From positions 1-33,719 of the forward strand of contig DATDEH010000032.1 in assembly GCA_036523395.1 (NCBI GenBank): a stretch of 33,719 bases of DNA. Reading direction: 5' to 3'. Positions 20,077 through 29,011 of the stretch are shown piece by piece. Both the position numbers and the translations under genes were made by a program. Positions within the stretch are counted from its first letter, which is position 1, and every line of letters begins with the position of its first letter. The DNA comes from Candidatus Limnocylindria bacterium (GTDB lineage Bacteria > Chloroflexota > Limnocylindria > P2-11E). A model generated the notes under the pieces. That model had not been told where the DNA came from. It made no database searches and worked only from the letters and a program-made list of their open reading frames with translations.

Positions 20077-20082
20077 TAGACT
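20077..20082 (+). promoter_or_regulatory. -10 box upstream of nuoB
   Basis: TAGACT lies eight bases before ATG 20091 in the short gap after the phosphatase gene. It is identical to the box before the DUF951 gene, and there is no ribosome-binding site, so the complex I operon may start with a nearly leaderless mRNA. Confidence 0.4.
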
Positions 20083-20090
20083 TGACCTCG

Positions 20091-20681
20091 ATGCCCGTGC
20101 AGGAAGAACGTCCCGCCGAGCGGGCGGGAGTACCGATCGACTTCGAAGAGGACGTCATTCAGCGACGTCCCCAGACCACCCAGGCGGGCCTGGGCAGCGA
20201 AGAGTTCCCGACGCGCGAGGGCGTCCTCGCCGACGAGGACAACATGGTCTTCACCACCGTCAACAACCTCATCAATTGGGCGCGCTCGCGCAGTCCATGG
20301 CCGCTCGGATACGGGTTGGCCTGCTGCGCGATCGAGATGATCGCCACGGGTGCCTCGACCCATGACCTGGCGCGCTTCGGAGCAGAGGTCTTCCGCTCGA
20401 GCCCGCGCCAGGCCGACGTGATGATCGTCGCGGGCACCGTGACTCACAAGATGGCTCCTCGGCTGCGGCGCCTGTACGAGCAGATGCCGGAGCCGAAGTG
20501 GGTCATCGCGATGGGGAACTGCGCTTCGTCGGGAGGCGAGTTCTGGGATAGCTACTCGACGTTGCAGGGTGTGGACACCATCGTCCCCGTCGACGTGTAT
20601 GTGCCCGGCTGTCCGCCGCGCCCTGAGGCCCTGCTCGAGGGCGTCCTGCGGCTGCGCGAGAAGATCGCCAAAGGCGGTTAG
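20091..20681 (+). CDS. nuoB: NADH-quinone oxidoreductase subunit B
   Basis: This 196-residue protein binds the terminal cluster N2 of complex I, which passes electrons to quinone. Ligands are visible: the tandem Cys in GLACCAIEM (78, 79), Cys144 in GNCASSGG and Cys174 in [12 protein letters not shown]. The N-terminal 45 residues are an acidic extension beyond the usual core. ATG 20091 is used; an in-frame TTG at 20082 overlaps the -10 box. It is directly followed by nuoD with no nuoC between, unlike the common nuoABCD order. NuoB contacts NuoD and NuoI in the complex. Confidence 0.95.
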
Positions 20682-20684
20682 GAA

Positions 20685-21866
20685 CTGACCACCACCGACA
20701 CCGAGCTTCGCCAGATCCGCGAAGGCGCCGGCGTCGAGCTTCCGGTCATCGAGGACGAAGGCCTCGAGACCGAGGAGCTGATCCTGAATTTGGGGCCGCA
20801 GCATCCCTCGACCCACGGCGTGCTCCGTTTGGTCTTGCGGCTGTCCGGGGAGAAAGTGGTGGAGTGCATCCCGGTCATGGGCTACCTCCACCGCGGTCTC
20901 GAGAAGATCTTCGAGTGGCGCACGTACGCACAGGGCGTTCGCTACGCGGACCAGGCCGATTACGTGTCGAACATGCTCAACGAGCATGCCTACGCAGGCG
21001 CGATGGAGGCCATCGCCGGCATCGAGGTACCGCGCCGCGCCGAATACATCCGGGTCATCGTCGACGAGCTGAGCCGCGCGGCATCCCACCTGATCTGGCT
21101 GGGCACCTACGGACTCGACCTGGGCGCCACGACGCCGGTGCTCTGGTGCTTCCGCGATCGGGAAGACATCCTCGACATGCTCGAGGAGCTCTGCGGCTCG
21201 CGCATGAACTTCAACTACTTCCGGCCCGGCGGCGTGCTCTATGACCTGCCGCCGGGATGGCTCCCGAAACTCACCCGCTTCCTCGACCGGTGGGAGAAGA
21301 ACATCGAGAACGACTACGTGCAGATCCTCGACGGCAATGAGATCTTCCTCGAGCGGACGATCGGCATCGGTCGCATCCCGGCCGAGGTCGCGAAGCAGTA
21401 CGGGGTGACAGGGCCGATGCTTCGCGCATGCGGCGTTCCCTGGGACCTGCGCGTCGACCGACCGTACTCGATCTACCCCGAGCTCAAGTCGATGCAGCCC
21501 GTCATTCTTGCGGACGGCGACGCCTTCGCGCGCTACAAGGTGCGCCTTGGGGAGATGCGGCTGGCGATCAAGCTCATTCGTGAGTGCATCGACGGCATCC
21601 CTGGCGGTCCGGTGCGCGCCCGCCTGGGACACGTGTGGAAGTGCCCGAAGGGCGAGGCGTACTACACGGTCGAAGGCGCGAAGGGCGAGGTCGGCATCTA
21701 CATGATCAGCGACGGGCGCAGCCCCAACCCCTTCCGCGCCAAGATGCGCGGCGCGTCGTTCGTGAACCTGCAGATCCTCCCGTGGCTGCTGAAGGGTCGG
21801 CTGGTGGCGGACGTGATCGCGATCCTGGGCTCGATCGACATCGTGCTCGGCGAGGTAGACCGATGA
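20685..21866 (+). CDS. nuoD: NADH-quinone oxidoreductase subunit D, CTG start
   Basis: This is the 393-residue 49-kDa subunit, forming the quinone site with NuoB. Conserved parts include GPQHPSTHGVLRLVL (37-51, with the His loop of the quinone pocket), LHRGLEK (68-74), and the C-terminal ADVIAILGSIDIVLGEVDR. The normal family N-terminus (LETEELILNLGPQHP) begins well before the first standard start, TTG 20790, which lies inside the quinone-loop motif and would remove 35 residues. CTG 20685, three bases after the nuoB stop and preceded by AAGGCGG, is the probable start. Arg70 (bases 20892-20894) matches the Arg that NDUFAF7 dimethylates in animal NDUFS2. Confidence 0.93.
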   Translation: MTTTDTELRQIREGAGVELPVIEDEGLETEELILNLGPQHPSTHGVLRLVLRLSGEKVVECIPVMGYLHRGLEKIFEWRTYAQGVRYADQADYVSNMLNEHAYAGAMEAIAGIEVPRRAEYIRVIVDELSRAASHLIWLGTYGLDLGATTPVLWCFRDREDILDMLEELCGSRMNFNYFRPGGVLYDLPPGWLPKLTRFLDRWEKNIENDYVQILDGNEIFLERTIGIGRIPAEVAKQYGVTGPMLRACGVPWDLRVDRPYSIYPELKSMQPVILADGDAFARYKVRLGEMRLAIKLIRECIDGIPGGPVRARLGHVWKCPKGEAYYTVEGAKGEVGIYMISDGRSPNPFRAKMRGASFVNLQILPWLLKGRLVADVIAILGSIDIVLGEVDR

Positions 21867-21958
21867 GTGAGCGAGGAGCGGTTCATCCGCGACGAGCGAA
21901 TCCGGCAGCCGTGAGCGTGTTTCCGCGCCGCAGGCGCGAGATTGGGCAGGACCGGTAA
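21863..21958 (+). CDS. Possible 31-residue leader or linker ORF
   Basis: ATG 21863 overlaps the nuoD stop (ATGA), and TAA 21956-21958 overlaps the next ATG (TAATG), so the frame bridges exactly the two neighbours. The predicted peptide is very basic (HPRRANP and FPRRRREIG). The DNA contains a perfect hairpin CGCGCC-GCA-GGCGCG (21924-21938) and repeated GAGCGA-like words, so it may instead be an intergenic repeat. Coupled translation through the gap is the alternative role. Confidence 0.25.
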   Translation: MSERGAVHPRRANPAAVSVFPRRRREIGQDR

Positions 21959-22677
21959 TGTTCGGGATCATCACCGGGATGCTCCGCACGCTGGAGCATT
22001 TCGTCCGACCCCGGCCGGTCACACGCAAGTACCCGTACGAGAAGCGGGTCCTCCCCGAGCGCAGCCGCGGCCTCATCGCGCTGCTGCTCGAGCCGGAGAC
22101 GAGCATCTTCAAGTGCGAGAGCTGTCTCATGTGCGAGAAGGCCTGCCCGCCGCGCGCGATCTCGATCTCGTACTCGTTCCGCAACGCGTTCCGGCGCCGT
22201 CCGCTCCTCGCGCCGCGGGCGAACTACTACCGGATCCGCATGGTCGCGGCGGCGCCCTACGGGGACCGCCGTCCGATGTCCACCGCGGTCACGACGATCC
22301 CGGCGGAGGATGAGGCGAAGCTCGACCTCACGAAGATGCGCGGCATCCTCGAAGGCGAGAGAGAGGGCGCGGACCGCATGACCCGCGTCCTGTATAGGGC
22401 GCACGCCGCGTACGGCTACCTGCCGTGGAGCGCAGCGGAGCTCGTCGCCATCGAGTTCGGGAAGACGATGACCGACGTGTACACGACGGCTTCGCTCCTT
22501 TCGAACTTCCGTGGCGCGCCCGCGGGCGAGGGCACCGCGGTGCCGCGTGGCGGGCGGCGCTTCACCGGCAACCTCGCGATCGCGGGCGCGTGGCCGCCGC
22601 AGTCGCCACCGCCCGCGCACGACGAGCTGCACGAAGATGAGGTGCATCACGTCGTCGAGCCCGCGTATGCCCGCTAG
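21958..22677 (+). CDS. Truncated NuoI fused to the helical domain of NuoE
   Basis: This 239-residue protein has two parts. Residues 1-95 resemble the N-terminal half of NuoI, with the membrane-lying helix (GMLRTLEHFVRPRPVTRKYP) and a single 4Fe-4S motif CESCLMCEKACP (Cys 53, 56, 59, 63); NuoI normally has two. Residues 125-190 resemble the helical start of NuoE (RMTRVLYRAHAAYGYLPW, then VYTTASLLSNFRG). The sequence stops where the NuoE thioredoxin-like 2Fe-2S domain should begin; no Cys follows. The tail is Pro/His/Glu-rich. AGGA lies six bases before ATG 21958. It overlaps nuoF by 11 bases. Confidence 0.85.
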   Translation: MFGIITGMLRTLEHFVRPRPVTRKYPYEKRVLPERSRGLIALLLEPETSIFKCESCLMCEKACPPRAISISYSFRNAFRRRPLLAPRANYYRIRMVAAAPYGDRRPMSTAVTTIPAEDEAKLDLTKMRGILEGEREGADRMTRVLYRAHAAYGYLPWSAAELVAIEFGKTMTDVYTTASLLSNFRGAPAGEGTAVPRGGRRFTGNLAIAGAWPPQSPPPAHDELHEDEVHHVVEPAYAR

Positions 22678-23848
22678 TACCGCGGTGCGCTTGCTCGATG
22701 GCGCTCGCGTTCCCGCCCTCGATCGCGCCCTCGACGCCGACGCCGCGATCGAGCGAGTGGCCGCATCCGGATTGCGTGGCCGGGGTGGCGCGGGGTTCGC
22801 GCTGGCGGACAAGCTGCGCGCGGTGCGCGCGAATTCCGCCGGAGGCGACGCGTACGTCGTCGCGAACGCGTACGACGCGGACCCGGACAGCCCGCTGGCG
22901 CGGACGCTGCTGGAGGGGCACGCCGACCTCGTCGTGCGTGGCATCGAGCTCGCCATGGCCATCACCGGTGCGACGCACGCGTTCCTCTATCTGCATCCCG
23001 AAGCGGCCGGCGCGCGCGATGCGGCCGAGCGCGCCCTCGCAGGCCGCGAGGACATCGAGATCACGCTCGGTCCGGGTGGCTTCATGGGCGGCGAGGAGAG
23101 CGCGCTCCTCAACGTGCTCGAGTCGAAGCGCGCGATGGCGCGACAGCGGCCTCCGTACCCGGCACTTCAGGGCTACCTGATGCGGCCGACGCTCGTGTCG
23201 AGCGTGGAGACGCTCGCGTGGCTGCCGCTCGTTCTCGAAGGCGCGAAGGCCGAGACGAAGCTCGTGTCGGTGACCGGAACGGTGAAGAAGCCTGGCGTGT
23301 ACGAGGTCGACCTCGGCACGACGCTCGGCGCGATCCTGGACCGCGCCGGTGGCGTGACCGGCGAGCTGAAGGCGATCCATGTCGGGGGACCCACGGGCGG
23401 CCTGCTGTCGGCGCAGCGTCGTAGCGCACGGTTCGATTACGACGACCTGAAAGCGGCCGGCACGCACATGGGGTCCGCTCAGATCCGCGCGATCGGCACG
23501 GACGTCTGCATGGTCCGCGAGGCCGGGCGGCTCTTCGCGTATCTCGCGAAGGAGAGCTGCGCGATCTGCGTGCCGTGCCGCGTTGGCACCAAGCGCGTCC
23601 AGGGCATCCTCGAGGGCGTGACGTCGTCACTCGGGCGCGACGGCGATCTGCCGTGGCTCACCGAGCTCGGCGACCACATGGAGCAGTTCTCGCTCTGCGG
23701 CTTCGGCATCACCGCGCCGTCGATCCTGCGCACGACGATGCGCGAGTTCCCGGATGACTACCGGTCGCACATCAAAGACCTCAAATGTCCGACCGGGACC
23801 TGCACGACGCTTCGCGCGCGCCGGTTCGAGACGATGGTGCAGCCGTGA
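22667..23848 (+). CDS. nuoF: NuoF-like subunit with altered NADH loop
   Basis: This 393-residue protein resembles the FMN- and NADH-binding complex I subunit. The FMN glycine loop GLRGRGGAGF (35-44), GGFMGGEESALLNVLESKR (137-155) and PTLVSSVETLAWLP (174-187) are kept. An SLBB domain follows (about 198-248), then the N3 cluster ligands Cys298, 301, 304 and 344 with normal spacing. The loop that is NADESEPG in ordinary NuoF reads NAYDADPDS (67-75), losing the conserved Glu residues that hold NADH. The N-terminal region is shorter than usual. Electron transfer to a NuoE 2Fe-2S cluster is impossible here, because that domain is missing from the operon. Confidence 0.9.
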   Translation: MPASTAVRLLDGARVPALDRALDADAAIERVAASGLRGRGGAGFALADKLRAVRANSAGGDAYVVANAYDADPDSPLARTLLEGHADLVVRGIELAMAITGATHAFLYLHPEAAGARDAAERALAGREDIEITLGPGGFMGGEESALLNVLESKRAMARQRPPYPALQGYLMRPTLVSSVETLAWLPLVLEGAKAETKLVSVTGTVKKPGVYEVDLGTTLGAILDRAGGVTGELKAIHVGGPTGGLLSAQRRSARFDYDDLKAAGTHMGSAQIRAIGTDVCMVREAGRLFAYLAKESCAICVPCRVGTKRVQGILEGVTSSLGRDGDLPWLTELGDHMEQFSLCGFGITAPSILRTTMREFPDDYRSHIKDLKCPTGTCTTLRARRFETMVQP

Positions 23849-24453
23849 GCGAGACGTGCCAGGCCTGCAGCGGCTTCATCGAGAAGGGCGCGGATGGCGC
23901 CTGGCGGCATCTCGCCCGCTGGGAGCCGTGCATCAGCGCGCGGCCGCGGACGCGGACCGCCACGCTCATCAGCGCCGAGCAGCGAAGCGCGCTCGCCGAC
24001 TACCTGTCGCTCCGAGTCGAACGGAATGAGTGGAAGTACTGGGTGGTCGGTGGCGTCATCGCGTTCTACCTCGCCCTCCTGTCGCGCGGCGACTGGCGCA
24101 TCTTCGCGGCCGGCCTGGTCATCGGCGCACTGACGACGGCGTCGATCATCGCGACCGTCGAGCACGCGCACGCCCTTCTCCGGCGCGAGACGACGCTCAT
24201 CCGCGTGACGGGATCGCTCGTCGTGGAGACGCGCAAGGATTCAGAGAAGGAGAAACGCTTCGTTCGTGTCGATGGCCGCGAGATCGTGCTCGACAGCGAG
24301 GTGCACGTCGGGCGCGAGCTGGGCGGCATCGAGTACACCGAGAAGCGCGCCTATCCGCTCGCGATCTGGGACCGTGACGGCGACCTCGTGTGGCACCGAC
24401 CTGAGTACGAGCCCGCGCCGCTCGGCGCCGATAGGATGGTCCTCACCGCATGA
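23845..24453 (+). CDS. Membrane protein of unknown function inside the complex I operon
   Basis: This 202-residue protein is linked on both sides by four-base overlaps (GTGA with nuoF, ATGA with the next gene), so it is made with the complex. The N-terminus has a CxxC pair (ETCQACSGF, 4-7) and another Cys near 29, perhaps a zinc ribbon. Two membrane helices follow (about 66-82 and 86-106), and a strand-rich C-terminal domain (about 118-202) with VRVDGREIVLDSEVHVGREL. I do not recognise the family. A membrane anchor or assembly factor for the flavoprotein module is a reasonable guess only. Confidence 0.7.
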   Translation: MSETCQACSGFIEKGADGAWRHLARWEPCISARPRTRTATLISAEQRSALADYLSLRVERNEWKYWVVGGVIAFYLALLSRGDWRIFAAGLVIGALTTASIIATVEHAHALLRRETTLIRVTGSLVVETRKDSEKEKRFVRVDGREIVLDSEVHVGRELGGIEYTEKRAYPLAIWDRDGDLVWHRPEYEPAPLGADRMVLTA

Positions 24454-26864
24454 GTCTCCTCGAGCGCTACATCCAGCCCGCGGAGTCCCAGCTGCCCACG
24501 GTCTCGCACGCCGGCGAGATCCCGTCGGGCCAACCGACCTGCACGATCACGATCGACGGCCAGGAGGTCACCGCGATCCCCGGCGAGGCGATCCTGCGCG
24601 CAGCGCAACGCGCCGGCTTCAAGGTCCCAACGCTCTGCGACGACGAGAAGCTCGCGCCGGCCGCGGCGTGTCGCATGTGCCTGGTCGACATCGAGGGCCA
24701 GGATCGGCCACTGCCGTCGTGCCACATCGCGGTCGAGCCCGGGATGAAGATCGTTTCGAGCTCGGACGCGCTGTTCAAGCTTCGCAAGCAGAACCTCGAG
24801 TACATCCTCAGCGATCACAACGCGTACTGCATGCCGCCGTGCCAGATCAGCTGCCCGACTCACATCGACATCCCGGGCTACCTGGAGCTGATGGCGAAGG
24901 GTCAGCACGTCGAAGCGGCACGCCTCGTGAAAGAAGTGCTGCCGTTCCCGTACATGCTCGGTCTGGTCTGCCCGAAGCCCTGCCAGGAGGTGTGCCGCCG
25001 CGGGCTGGTCGAGGAGGAGATCGCGATCTGCCAGTGCCACGGCTACACCGGCGAGCTCGTGATGGAGATGGACGTAGCACCGACGCCCTTCCCGCAGAAG
25101 ATCGCGAGCGGCAAGCGCGTCGCGGTCGTGGGTGCCGGACCCGCGGGCATGACCGCCGCGTACTACACGGCGCTCAACGGCCACGCCGTGACGGTGTTCG
25201 ACATGATGGCGAAGCAGGGCGGCATCTGCCGATACGGCATCCCGGAGTACCGCCTTCCCAAGGTGAAGCTGGACAAGGAGCTCAATTCGCTCTGGCAGCT
25301 GCGCGACACCGAGTTCAAGGGCGGTATGAAGCTCGGCCGCGACTTCACCGTGGATCAGCTGCTCGCGCAGGGCTACGACGCGGTATTCCTCGGGATCGGC
25401 GCGTGGAGCAGCAACGAGCTGCGCATCCCCGGAGAGGATCTGCCCGGCGTCATCGAGGCGATCAACTACCTGCGCCAGAACGCCGAGGGCGATCCGGTCC
25501 CGGTGGGAAAGGGCAACAGGGTCGTCGTCATCGGTGGCGGCTTCACCACCTTCGACTGCGCGCGTACGTCACGCCGGCTCGGGGCCGAGGTCACCGTCGT
25601 CTACCGCCGCTCGCGCAAGGAGATGGGTGCGCACTACAGCGAGGTCGACGACGCGGAGCACGAGGGCATCAAGCTCGAGTTCTACGCGGCGCCGGTCAAG
25701 ATCGTCGAGAAGAACGGGCGCGTGGGCGGCGTCGAGTTCCAGCGGATGGCGCTCGGTGAGCCCGATGCGTCAGGCCGGCGCCGCCCGGTGCCGGTCGAGG
25801 GCTCGAACTTCACGATCGACTGCGACACCGTGATCCCGGCCATCGGCCAGATCCCGGTCCTGGACTGGATCGACCGGGACACCGGTGTACGTCGGAGCAA
25901 GCGCGAGACGATCATCACGAACGGCGCGCTTATGACCGACCGCCCTGGCGTCTTCGCCGGCGGCGACGCGCAGATGGGAACGCGCACGGTCATCGAGTGC
26001 GTCGCGCAGGGCAAGCTCGCGGCGAAGGCGATGGACCGCTACCTGGCGGGCGACGACATGGCCCGTGTCGCGGAAGAGATCGCTGAAGAGGAGCGGGTGC
26101 CAGAGCTCATCGACATCGTTCCGTACAAGCCGGAAGAGCCACAGGTCCGGATGCCGATGCTGTCGTTCCTGGAGCGCGAGCAGTCGTTCCAGGTGATCGA
26201 GAACGGCTACACCAAGGACCTCGCCGAGAAAGAGGCGGCACGCTGCCTCCAGTGCGTGTGCCCCGACGTCGGCCGATGCCACCTGCAGCGGCTGTCGGTC
26301 GAGCACGGTCTCACCGAGAACCGCTTCCACCGCGCCGAGCCGATCGACTACCACGACTACGAGTACGACTTCAGCCACGACTTCATCCTTCGCGACCTGA
26401 ACAAGTGCATCAACTGCACGCAGTGCGTGCGGATCTGCCGCGACGTCATCGGCGCGAACTGCTACGGGCTCATGGGCGGCGGCTACGACTCGATCGTGAC
26501 GACACCGTGGAACGTCTCGCTGTCGTACACGGACTGCGTGTCGTGCGGCGCCTGCGCCGAGACGTGTCCCACGGGCGCGTTGATGATGCGCGAGCGCGAT
26601 CTGCAGACCTACGAGCTCGACGTCGTGCGCTGCATCTACTGCGGCGACTGCGTCGAGGTGTGTCCCCACGGCGCGCTCGGCGAAACGCCGAACTTCGAGC
26701 TCGCGACGTACAAGCGCTTCGGCGTGACGGTCCTGGCGAAGGAAGAGCTCGCAGTGGCGAAGACCTGGAAGTCGTCGGAGCAGGTGCCCACGAACGGCGA
26801 TGGCAACGGCGGAGTGCGTCCGCCCGAGGTGCGGCCGCCCGCTCCGCCGCGCTGGGGCGCGTAA
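24450..26864 (+). CDS. Multidomain flavo-iron-sulfur protein: NuoG 2Fe-2S / GltD-like oxidoreductase / ferredoxin and NuoI-like clusters
   Basis: This protein has 804 residues. Residues 30-100 form a NuoG-type 2Fe-2S domain (Cys 63, 74, 77, 91, exact spacing). Residues 120-200 hold a His/Cys motif (His123, Cys 127, 131, 135) merging into the GltD-type double 4Fe-4S segment (Cys 174, 178, 182, 194, 196). Residues 220-530 are a GltD/NfnB-like flavoprotein with an FAD loop (VVGAGPAG, 226-233), a pyridine-nucleotide loop (IGGGFTTFDCA, 361-371) and FAGGDA (502-507). Further Cys clusters are at 599-610, 653-663, 696-706 and 728-738; the last, with PNFELATYKR, is NuoI-like. The molybdopterin-like NuoG domain is missing. 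It probably oxidises NADH or NADPH and feeds complex I. Confidence 0.9.
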   Translation: MSLLERYIQPAESQLPTVSHAGEIPSGQPTCTITIDGQEVTAIPGEAILRAAQRAGFKVPTLCDDEKLAPAAACRMCLVDIEGQDRPLPSCHIAVEPGMKIVSSSDALFKLRKQNLEYILSDHNAYCMPPCQISCPTHIDIPGYLELMAKGQHVEAARLVKEVLPFPYMLGLVCPKPCQEVCRRGLVEEEIAICQCHGYTGELVMEMDVAPTPFPQKIASGKRVAVVGAGPAGMTAAYYTALNGHAVTVFDMMAKQGGICRYGIPEYRLPKVKLDKELNSLWQLRDTEFKGGMKLGRDFTVDQLLAQGYDAVFLGIGAWSSNELRIPGEDLPGVIEAINYLRQNAEGDPVPVGKGNRVVVIGGGFTTFDCARTSRRLGAEVTVVYRRSRKEMGAHYSEVDDAEHEGIKLEFYAAPVKIVEKNGRVGGVEFQRMALGEPDASGRRRPVPVEGSNFTIDCDTVIPAIGQIPVLDWIDRDTGVRRSKRETIITNGALMTDRPGVFAGGDAQMGTRTVIECVAQGKLAAKAMDRYLAGDDMARVAEEIAEEERVPELIDIVPYKPEEPQVRMPMLSFLEREQSFQVIENGYTKDLAEKEAARCLQCVCPDVGRCHLQRLSVEHGLTENRFHRAEPIDYHDYEYDFSHDFILRDLNKCINCTQCVRICRDVIGANCYGLMGGGYDSIVTTPWNVSLSYTDCVSCGACAETCPTGALMMRERDLQTYELDVVRCIYCGDCVEVCPHGALGETPNFELATYKRFGVTVLAKEELAVAKTWKSSEQVPTNGDGNGGVRPPEVRPPAPPRWGA

Positions 26865-26870
26865 GCGAAG

Positions 26871-27896
26871 ATCTACCTTCGCTCATTCGACGGGCGTTGG
26901 GTCGGCTTCGCGCCGGAGGCCCTCATTCAGCCGGCGGGCCAAGGCCTGATCTCGCGTGATGAGGCGCTGCATGAGGTGCGCGCACGAGTTGCCGCGCAGC
27001 GCGCGGATCTCGAGCGGCTCGGTGCGACATTCGAGGGCGGCGCCGAAGAAGTGACCGAGTGGGGAAGCGACTGGGGCGTACCACTCGCACCTTTCTTGCC
27101 CCCTTCACCCTCCCTGCTGCGCGCCGGCCTCGCGCTTCTCGATGAGCGCGAGCGGCAGCTGGACTCGACCGTAAGCGCGCTCGCGCCAGCCGAATGGGAA
27201 CGACGCGACGGGTCGGACGGCTGGACGTTACGGATGGTCGTGGACCACCTGGCGGCGGGATCGCTCCTATTTTTGTTGCGCGTTGAGATCTGGCCGCTCG
27301 ACGCTGACGAGGCGCAGCGTGGTGCCCTCGAGGAGGTGCTCTCGCGCGCTGTGCGGTGCAGCCGTGAGTCCAAGGCATTCGAGCTGTTTGGTTGGAACGC
27401 TGAGAACGGACGCGTCCGCTGGACCGCGCGCACGGTCGTGAGGGCCATTGGCAGGATGCAGCATGGGTGGCTTGCACATATCGCCGGCGGACCCGAGCCC
27501 AAGGAGCTCGACTTCACCAGGCACGAGAACGCTGGAGGTGACGACTCCGCGGTGGGGGATGACGAGATCGCCGAGCTTCGGGAGCGTGACGCCAGGCTTC
27601 GGAGCGCGGCGCGCGAGTGGCCCGGTGTCCGCGTCATCGCATTCTGGTATCGCTACTACCGCGATCGTCTGACGAACTGGCCGGTTGACGAGCTCGAACG
27701 CTGGCGCGCAATGCGCGCTGCTTTCCGGGACCGCCTGTTGTCGTACGACGAGAGTGGCTTGGCGGCCGTTCGCGTCGCGCCGCACGGAGGCTGTACGAGC
27801 GTGCGTCAGCAGCTCGCGCTCGCGCTTTCGCACCTGCCGGAGCATCAAGGGCAGATCGCGAAGATCCTCGGGGTCGCGCAGCCGGCCAGAGGCTGA
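26871..27896 (+). CDS. HicB-like domain fused to DinB-like domain; start unresolved
   Basis: Residues 1-75 of the frame opened after the preceding TAA resemble a HicB-type partial RNase H fold (YLRSFDGRWVGFAPE, then GLISRDEALHEV). From about 90 on the protein is DinB-like, a four-helix bundle with metal-binding His in VVDHLAAG and in the pair SHLPEHQGQI. DinB-fold proteins include thiol-dependent transferases. The first standard start, GTG 26976, would cut through the HicB-like part. ATC 26871 is a tentative start, giving 341 residues. The frame is the same as that of the upstream flavoprotein, separated by one stop. The stop overlaps the next ATG (TGATG). Confidence 0.7.
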   Translation: MYLRSFDGRWVGFAPEALIQPAGQGLISRDEALHEVRARVAAQRADLERLGATFEGGAEEVTEWGSDWGVPLAPFLPPSPSLLRAGLALLDERERQLDSTVSALAPAEWERRDGSDGWTLRMVVDHLAAGSLLFLLRVEIWPLDADEAQRGALEEVLSRAVRCSRESKAFELFGWNAENGRVRWTARTVVRAIGRMQHGWLAHIAGGPEPKELDFTRHENAGGDDSAVGDDEIAELRERDARLRSAAREWPGVRVIAFWYRYYRDRLTNWPVDELERWRAMRAAFRDRLLSYDESGLAAVRVAPHGGCTSVRQQLALALSHLPEHQGQIAKILGVAQPARG

Positions 27897-29011
27897 TGGC
27901 GACGCTCCGCGACCGACTCATCGCTCGCATCCGGGCGCGCGGGTCGATCAGCTTCGCGGAGTACATGGAAGCGGCCCTCTTCGATCCCGAAGACGGCTAC
28001 TACACATCGCGTGTTGCGCTGGGATTCGAAGGCGACTACCTCACAGCGTCCGATCTCGGGCCGCATTTCGCACGCGCGCTCGCTCGCGCGTTCGCGGATC
28101 TGTGGACGCAGCTGGGGAAGCCCGCCGCGTGGGATCTGGTCGAGGCAGGCGCAGGCCGCGGCATCTTCCTCCGTGACGTGCTCACCGCTCTCGAGCGCGA
28201 GCGCGCCGATGCGGCAAAGGGCGCGCGCCCGACCATCGTCGAGGTCTCGCCGCGGCTGCGCGAGCAGCAATCGACGACCCTCGCCGGCCGCGACCTGCGC
28301 TGGGCGTCTGATGCGCGCGCGCTCGCTCCCGTGCAGGGCGTCATCTTCGCGAATGAGGTGCTCGATGCCTTCCCCGTGCACGTTCTCGTGCGGACCGCGG
28401 AGGGTGTGCGTGAGGTCTTCGTCCAGGAGAACGCCGGCGTCCTCAGCGAGACGCTTCGCGCGCCGAGCCTTCCCGATCTCAGCTGGCGCGTCCCCGAGCG
28501 GCTTCCGGCCGGCGGACGCTGGGAGGTCAGCCCGGCGGCGGAGGGCTGGGTCGCGAGCCTCGCACCCGCGCTCACCAGTGGCTACGTCCTGTTCGTCGAC
28601 TACGGCGGCGATGAGAACGAGCTGCTCACGCGCCTCGGGGCCGGCACGCTGCGCGGTTTCTCGCGCCATCGGCTCATCACCGATCCTTACACCGAACCCG
28701 GCGCGCAGGATCTGACTGCGAGCGTGAACTTCACGGCGATCCGCCGTGCGGCGGAGGGTGCTGGCTTCGCGTTCGCGGGCCGCGCGACGCAGCGCGACGC
28801 ACTCATCGCGCTGGGGATCCGCGAAGCGACCGCGCGCGCGGATACGCCGATCGAGCAGCTGCGCGCGCTCGGCCGCCGTTCCGCGATCGACACGCTCCTC
28901 GACCCGAACGGCTTCGGCGCATTCGAGTTCGTGTGCTTCGCGAAGGACGCGCCGACCGAGGGCCTGCGCATGTTCGGGACGCGGGCGACAAGCGAGGTCC
29001 GGTATCCTTGA
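27896..29011 (+). CDS. NDUFAF7/MidA-family protein arginine methyltransferase
   Basis: This 371-residue SAM-dependent methyltransferase belongs to the NDUFAF7 (MidA, DUF185) family. Family features are FAEYMEAALFDPEDGYYTSR near the start, EGDYLTASDLGPHF (45-58), SAM motif I LVEAGAGRG (81-89), and the active-site-like ANEVLDAFPVH (152-162). In animals NDUFAF7 symmetrically dimethylates an Arg of the NuoD orthologue early in complex I assembly. Here the gene is in the same coupled run as nuoB and nuoD, which gives genetic support for a complex I role in bacteria. Its start overlaps the upstream stop by one base. Confidence 0.9.
   Translation: MATLRDRLIARIRARGSISFAEYMEAALFDPEDGYYTSRVALGFEGDYLTASDLGPHFARALARAFADLWTQLGKPAAWDLVEAGAGRGIFLRDVLTALERERADAAKGARPTIVEVSPRLREQQSTTLAGRDLRWASDARALAPVQGVIFANEVLDAFPVHVLVRTAEGVREVFVQENAGVLSETLRAPSLPDLSWRVPERLPAGGRWEVSPAAEGWVASLAPALTSGYVLFVDYGGDENELLTRLGAGTLRGFSRHRLITDPYTEPGAQDLTASVNFTAIRRAAEGAGFAFAGRATQRDALIALGIREATARADTPIEQLRALGRRSAIDTLLDPNGFGAFEFVCFAKDAPTEGLRMFGTRATSEVRYP

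Follow-up and report, generated by a model that had tools for sequence, protein, structure and literature searches.

Gene run and methyltransferase family

The window, i.e. the whole stretch of 33,719 nucleotides that was analysed, is contig C32 of the 3.0-Mb, 128-contig genome of a soil bacterium of the phylum Chloroflexota. On its plus strand, nuoB, nuoD, a NuoI/NuoE-like gene, nuoF, an ORF without family match, a GltD-like gene, a DinB-like ORF and a methyltransferase gene follow one another (Table 1). The methyltransferase gene lies 6.0-6.2 kb downstream of nuoD, and its immediate neighbour is the DinB-like ORF, which overlaps its start codon. This ORF is absent in the closest relatives, CF_64 (L002) and clean326 (L003), in which the methyltransferase gene comes directly after the GltD-like gene. 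The order nuoB-nuoD-nuoI/E-nuoF-GltD-like-methyltransferase was common to the sampled genomes of the window's family (5/5), and was kept at least in part in the named relatives, whose contigs are cut. The placement of the methyltransferase in the same gene run as nuoD, claimed in a preliminary description of this DNA, was thus confirmed, and in view of the conserved order it exceeds chance. A promoter-like site was looked for around the methyltransferase gene and none was found.

Table 1 Features of the gene run (positions are those of the window)
Feature	Position	Strand	Basis
nuoB (PSST subunit); frame opens further upstream, start provisional	20082..20681	+	
nuoD (49-kDa subunit of complex I, homologous to NDUFS2/Nqo4); its product is the presumed substrate	20685..21866	+	PF00346, 2.3e-83
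NuoD codon for Arg70, within GYLHRGLEK; presumed site of dimethylation (Arg85 in human NDUFS2, Arg65 in P. denitrificans)	20892..20894	+	
NuoI, N-terminal half (one CxxCxxCxxxCP), continuing as a NuoE-like helical part	21958..22677	+	
nuoF (51-kDa subunit; divergent)	22511..23848	+	
ORF of 222 aa without family match, probably membrane-spanning (by eye)	23785..24453	+	
NuoG-replacing protein (2Fe-2S + GltD-like + 4Fe-4S) with a C-terminal match to the second half of NuoI	24450..26864	+	
DinB-like ORF separating the GltD-like and methyltransferase genes	26976..27896	+	
MidA/NDUFAF7-family (PF02636, COG1565) SAM-dependent methyltransferase, 371 aa	27896..29011	+	profile, fold, residues

The genes for the membrane arm (NuoH and antiporter-like ORFs) were located on a separate contig, C113, and no nuoC is present in this run between nuoB and nuoD (20681-20685). 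NuoI is apparently split: the ORF at 21958-22677 corresponds to positions 1-72 of TIGR01971 and the C-terminus of the GltD-like protein to positions 69-112, and the NuoE-like piece of the former ORF is without its 2Fe-2S domain. The split NuoI and the replacement of NuoG by the 2Fe-2S/GltD-like/4Fe-4S protein form a layout that is conserved in the window's family.

The methyltransferase ORF is stop-free and complete in translation. It matched the Pfam profile PF02636 (Methyltransf_28) at 9e-57 with 193-194 bits against a curated cut-off of 23.3, and was the one PF02636 gene detected by profile search in the whole genome. The NCBIfam search gave no named family, and a single-protein search of genome collections returned 8 loci only; identities to the nearest named relatives, which are Chloroflexi MAGs, were 91, 74, 67 and 64%. 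Its sequence relatives in the PDB were only 1zkd, 4f3n/4g67 and the NDUFAF7 homologue of Dictyostelium, 5ztz. An AlphaFold2 model (pLDDT 82, pTM 0.84) was compared with the PDB by Foldseek, and the best matches were 4f3n, 4g67, 1zkd, 5zu0 and 5ztz (E 1e-29 to 3e-23), with the first unrelated match only at E 1e-6. TM values against the COG1565 structures and MidA were 0.76-0.80, those of other methyltransferases being far below, and the MidA fold is shared over the whole length (TM 0.79-0.80 to 5ztz/5zu0, about 400 columns). The closest structures, 1zkd from Rhodopseudomonas palustris and 4f3n/4g67 from Burkholderia thailandensis (COG1565/DUF185; E 1e-26 to 1e-29, 28-32% identity), come from another phylum and are PDB entries without assigned function.

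The SAM motif (E83, G85-x-G87-x-G89) and the NExxDAxP and DYG motifs (N153-E154-x-x-D157-A158-x-P160 and D235-Y236) were conserved across phyla in alignments of 56 and of 11 homologues; in the latter, E83, G87, N153-E154, D157-A158, P160, D235-Y236, G269, D272 and T274 were among the invariant residues. With human NDUFAF7 and Dictyostelium MidA (5ztz, 5zu0) the protein therefore shares PF02636, the fold, the SAM motif and the NE/D-A-P and DYG motifs, and the NuoD encoded in its genome keeps the target residue with its loop. It differs in its identity of about 21-22% to Dictyostelium MidA, in being bacterial and encoded near the presumed target genes, and in that its activity is a predicted one. 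The ORF is an intact bacterial MidA/NDUFAF7-family enzyme, as the preliminary description had proposed.

NuoD and its presumed target arginine

The NuoD frame spans 20682-21866 and contains no ATG, GTG or TTG before 20790, and a start at 20790 would remove a conserved strand. At the homologous start position a CTG is found in the window (20685) and in two relatives (G155, G067), and an ATG in two others (G163, G083). NuoD thus probably starts at CTG 20685, and with this start the arginine in question is correctly numbered Arg70. Its codon is CGC, within '..VMGYLHRGLEKIF..', in the GYLHRG loop, and the YLHRG motif with Arg70 given in the preliminary description holds with this numbering. In a PF00346 search of the genome, the Arg-type NuoD of the window was the one true NuoD. 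The other match was a weak one on contig C88, which also carries another NuoH-like gene; this second NuoH/NuoD-like pair (L017) belongs to the kind known from group 4 hydrogenase-like complexes.

For human NDUFAF7, both the enzyme and its site, Arg85 of NDUFS2, have been proven (PMC3829151). In eukaryotes MidA binds NDUFS2 and is required for assembly (PMC9006661). Among bacteria, a 2013 mass spectrometry study showed symmetric dimethylation of the equivalent residue of Paracoccus denitrificans Nqo4, Arg65, and an unmodified state of the conserved Arg of E. coli NuoCD (PMC3750175), and Thermus has Thr at the target position (PMC8042128). Paracoccus is thus a bacterial case in which the product is proven at the corresponding position of this subunit; the difference from the present case is that the methylating enzyme is not identified in that study, whose accessible text does not report gene linkage (PMC3750175). 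A role of MidA conserved from bacteria on, and a bacterial origin of MidA, were proposed in 2018, as far as that proposal is cited in later work (Cell Rep 24:1996, cited in PMC9006661). According to a 2025 paper, the function of prokaryotic MidA has so far been inferred only in silico, and Wolbachia MidA expressed in dam-/dcm- E. coli gave 166 methylated bases, as N4-cytosine and N6-adenine (PMC12455994).

Occurrence of the enzyme with complex I and NuoD type

The occurrence of the enzyme was surveyed in 201 Chloroflexota genomes, in which it was counted at 60 bits or more, and in 297 genomes of a second phylum around the genome holding locus L008, in which it was counted at E < 1e-20. Among the Chloroflexota, 87 genomes had the enzyme and 192 had NuoD. 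Eight of the nine genomes without detected NuoD were also without the enzyme; the exception (G139) is an assembly of 89% completeness, and NuoD is present in its congener G059. In the second phylum the enzyme was found in 130/297 genomes, every one of which had NuoD (130/130), and in none of the 28 genomes without NuoD (p 5e-8). Wide occurrence in genomes lacking complex I, which the preliminary description had set against its own proposal, was therefore not observed. Three of 14 named control genomes (Caulobacter, Synechococcus and Haloferax) carried the enzyme, all three with NuoD; among these 14 controls, it was not found in E. coli and Thermus.

The target position was read in the NuoDs of 147 Chloroflexota genomes, for some non-carriers in part of their NuoDs. 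All 71 carriers with NuoD read had an Arg NuoD in HR[G/S] context. Among the non-carriers, 27 had RG, RS or RA, 30 had RN or RC as their only Arg type, and 19 had only Thr/Ser, so that the enzyme was present in none of the 49 genomes read without an HR[G/S/A] NuoD (0/30 RN/RC, 0/19 Thr/Ser). The association of enzyme and NuoD type gave Fisher p values of 1.6e-19 by genome and 5e-6 by family (59 families), and of 9e-14 among Arg-bearing genomes only (RG/RS/RA vs RN/RC); genome counts are not independent here, because all Thr/Ser proteins and all RN/RC proteins each form one group in the NuoD tree, and the association is one at the genome level and partly phylogenetic. Within a single family (f35), the enzyme is present in the three genomes whose NuoD has HRG and absent from the one with HRN. 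Many Chloroflexota have NuoDs of one lineage in which the target loop reads GYLHRNHE (L183-L206), never alongside the enzyme; these NuoDs often lie in frames of 580-690 aa, which are possibly NuoC-D fusions.

In the second phylum, 32 of the 33 carriers read had an Arg NuoD; in six of these 32 the best-scoring NuoD was of the Thr type and a second NuoD of the Arg type. The remaining one (G213; L334, L339) was the only carrier found among these 33 whose sole detected NuoD has Thr, which could be due to a missed gene, to contamination or to a real exception. Fourteen second-phylum genomes with a single Thr NuoD gave no strong match to the enzyme. Many Chloroflexota carriers have two NuoDs, one with Thr and one with Arg. 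In a mirror-tree comparison of the enzyme with each type in 26 genomes that have both, the correlation was 0.86 for the Arg type vs 0.88 for the Thr type, a difference indistinguishable from zero, and species history dominates. The enzyme occurs nearly exclusively with Arg NuoD in HR[G/S] context.

These counts bear on the reading that bacterial MidA acts elsewhere, for example on DNA with an effect on gene expression, and that the complex I link belongs to mitochondria only. The 166 methylated bases obtained with the Wolbachia protein and the in silico nature of the prokaryotic assignment (PMC12455994) speak for it. However, a DNA methylase should follow neither the presence of complex I nor the residue at one position of NuoD, and carriers lacking these were almost absent from two phyla. 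Moreover, the Paracoccus subunit is dimethylated (PMC3750175). We regard action on DNA as very improbable, and NuoD rather than DNA is supported as the substrate, because the enzyme tracks both the presence of NuoD and its HR[G/S] context.

The Arg by itself was rejected as a sufficient marker of the modification, since 27 Chloroflexota genomes have it without the enzyme and E. coli has it unmodified (PMC3750175). From these 27 genomes it follows that the Arg does not need methylation everywhere. They include all six genomes of a family of the window's class (f3; L036, L038, L039, L041, L044, L210), which keep GYLHRG without the enzyme and are natural controls for unmodified Arg.

Gene linkage and proposed function

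The enzyme was encoded within 15 kb of nuoD in 17 of the 87 Chloroflexota carriers, which belong to three families. In the window's family (f1) all five carriers were linked, with the enzyme downstream of the GltD-like gene. In f4, 9 of 10 were linked; eight of these nine have the gene upstream of nuoA and on its strand, and nuoB, nuoD and nuoH come next. In f25 (3/3), it lies beside nuoA on the opposite strand with a hydantoinase gene between. None of the 60 testable carriers of the second phylum showed linkage to nuoD. The arrangements of f1 and f4 look independent, because the enzyme tree places their proteins in distinct, well-supported groups and the two families differ in NuoD type. The presence of the gene in or beside nuo clusters in three families is a further point against a DNA substrate.

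Linkage was rejected as general support for the function, being found in three Chloroflexota families only and absent in the second phylum; gene clustering is weak evidence that cannot carry the argument, because it is lineage-restricted. It may also be that the enzyme methylates NuoD and that its position is incidental, a chance landing near nuo preserved by neighbourhood inertia. The 70 unlinked carriers in Chloroflexota and the 60 in the second phylum fit such a history, as does a start-overlapping neighbour, the DinB-like ORF, without a complex I role. Against it, two arrangements within one class (f1 and f4) involve enzymes that stand apart in the tree, and f25 shows a third; drift alone is unlikely to produce this, and we consider an incidental position unlikely, though a good deal less so than action on DNA.

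The assignment to the family and the presumed target are supported by the fold, the conserved residues and the survey. The enzyme most likely dimethylates Arg70 of NuoD with SAM as the predicted methyl donor. We infer that the dimethylation would be symmetric and would take place at the GYLHRG loop, a loop packed against cluster N2. The enzyme may, by analogy with mitochondria, act on NuoD during complex I assembly, and the dimethyl-Arg would tune the surroundings of N2 and let assembly proceed. A protein that serves as an assembly chaperone binding NuoD, with methylation lost, would agree with the binding of MidA to NDUFS2 and its requirement for eukaryotic assembly (PMC9006661), the activity of the window's enzyme being only predicted; conservation of its SAM-motif and active-site residues across phyla and retention of the substrate Arg in carriers make such a chaperone hardly credible, and dimethylation of Arg70 is the reading that we prefer.

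The preliminary description had further suggested, from gene clustering, that the modification is ancient and operates in bacteria. This is very probably right, but clustering is weak evidence for it, and a bacterial modification is not a new claim, because the dimethylation of Arg65 in P. denitrificans was reported in 2013 and the MidA proposal dates from 2018. The new content is quantitative: the enzyme is distributed in step with complex I and with NuoD of the HR[G/S] form.

We lean slightly towards the view that bacterial MidA serves a single kind of complex I, in which the Arg of NuoD is followed by Gly or Ser, and not to the HRN or Thr types. Bacteria with two isoenzymes would then methylate only one of them, and an Arg NuoD without MidA would mark complexes whose Arg at N2 is unmodified, as it is in E. 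coli. The survey provides a quantitative and independent line of argument that MidA targets complex I, against the recent DNA-methylation claim. It also supplies natural controls, namely genomes that share the Arg but differ in having the enzyme, and genomes that own both types of NuoD, by which the purpose of the modification at cluster N2 becomes testable in cultured bacteria.
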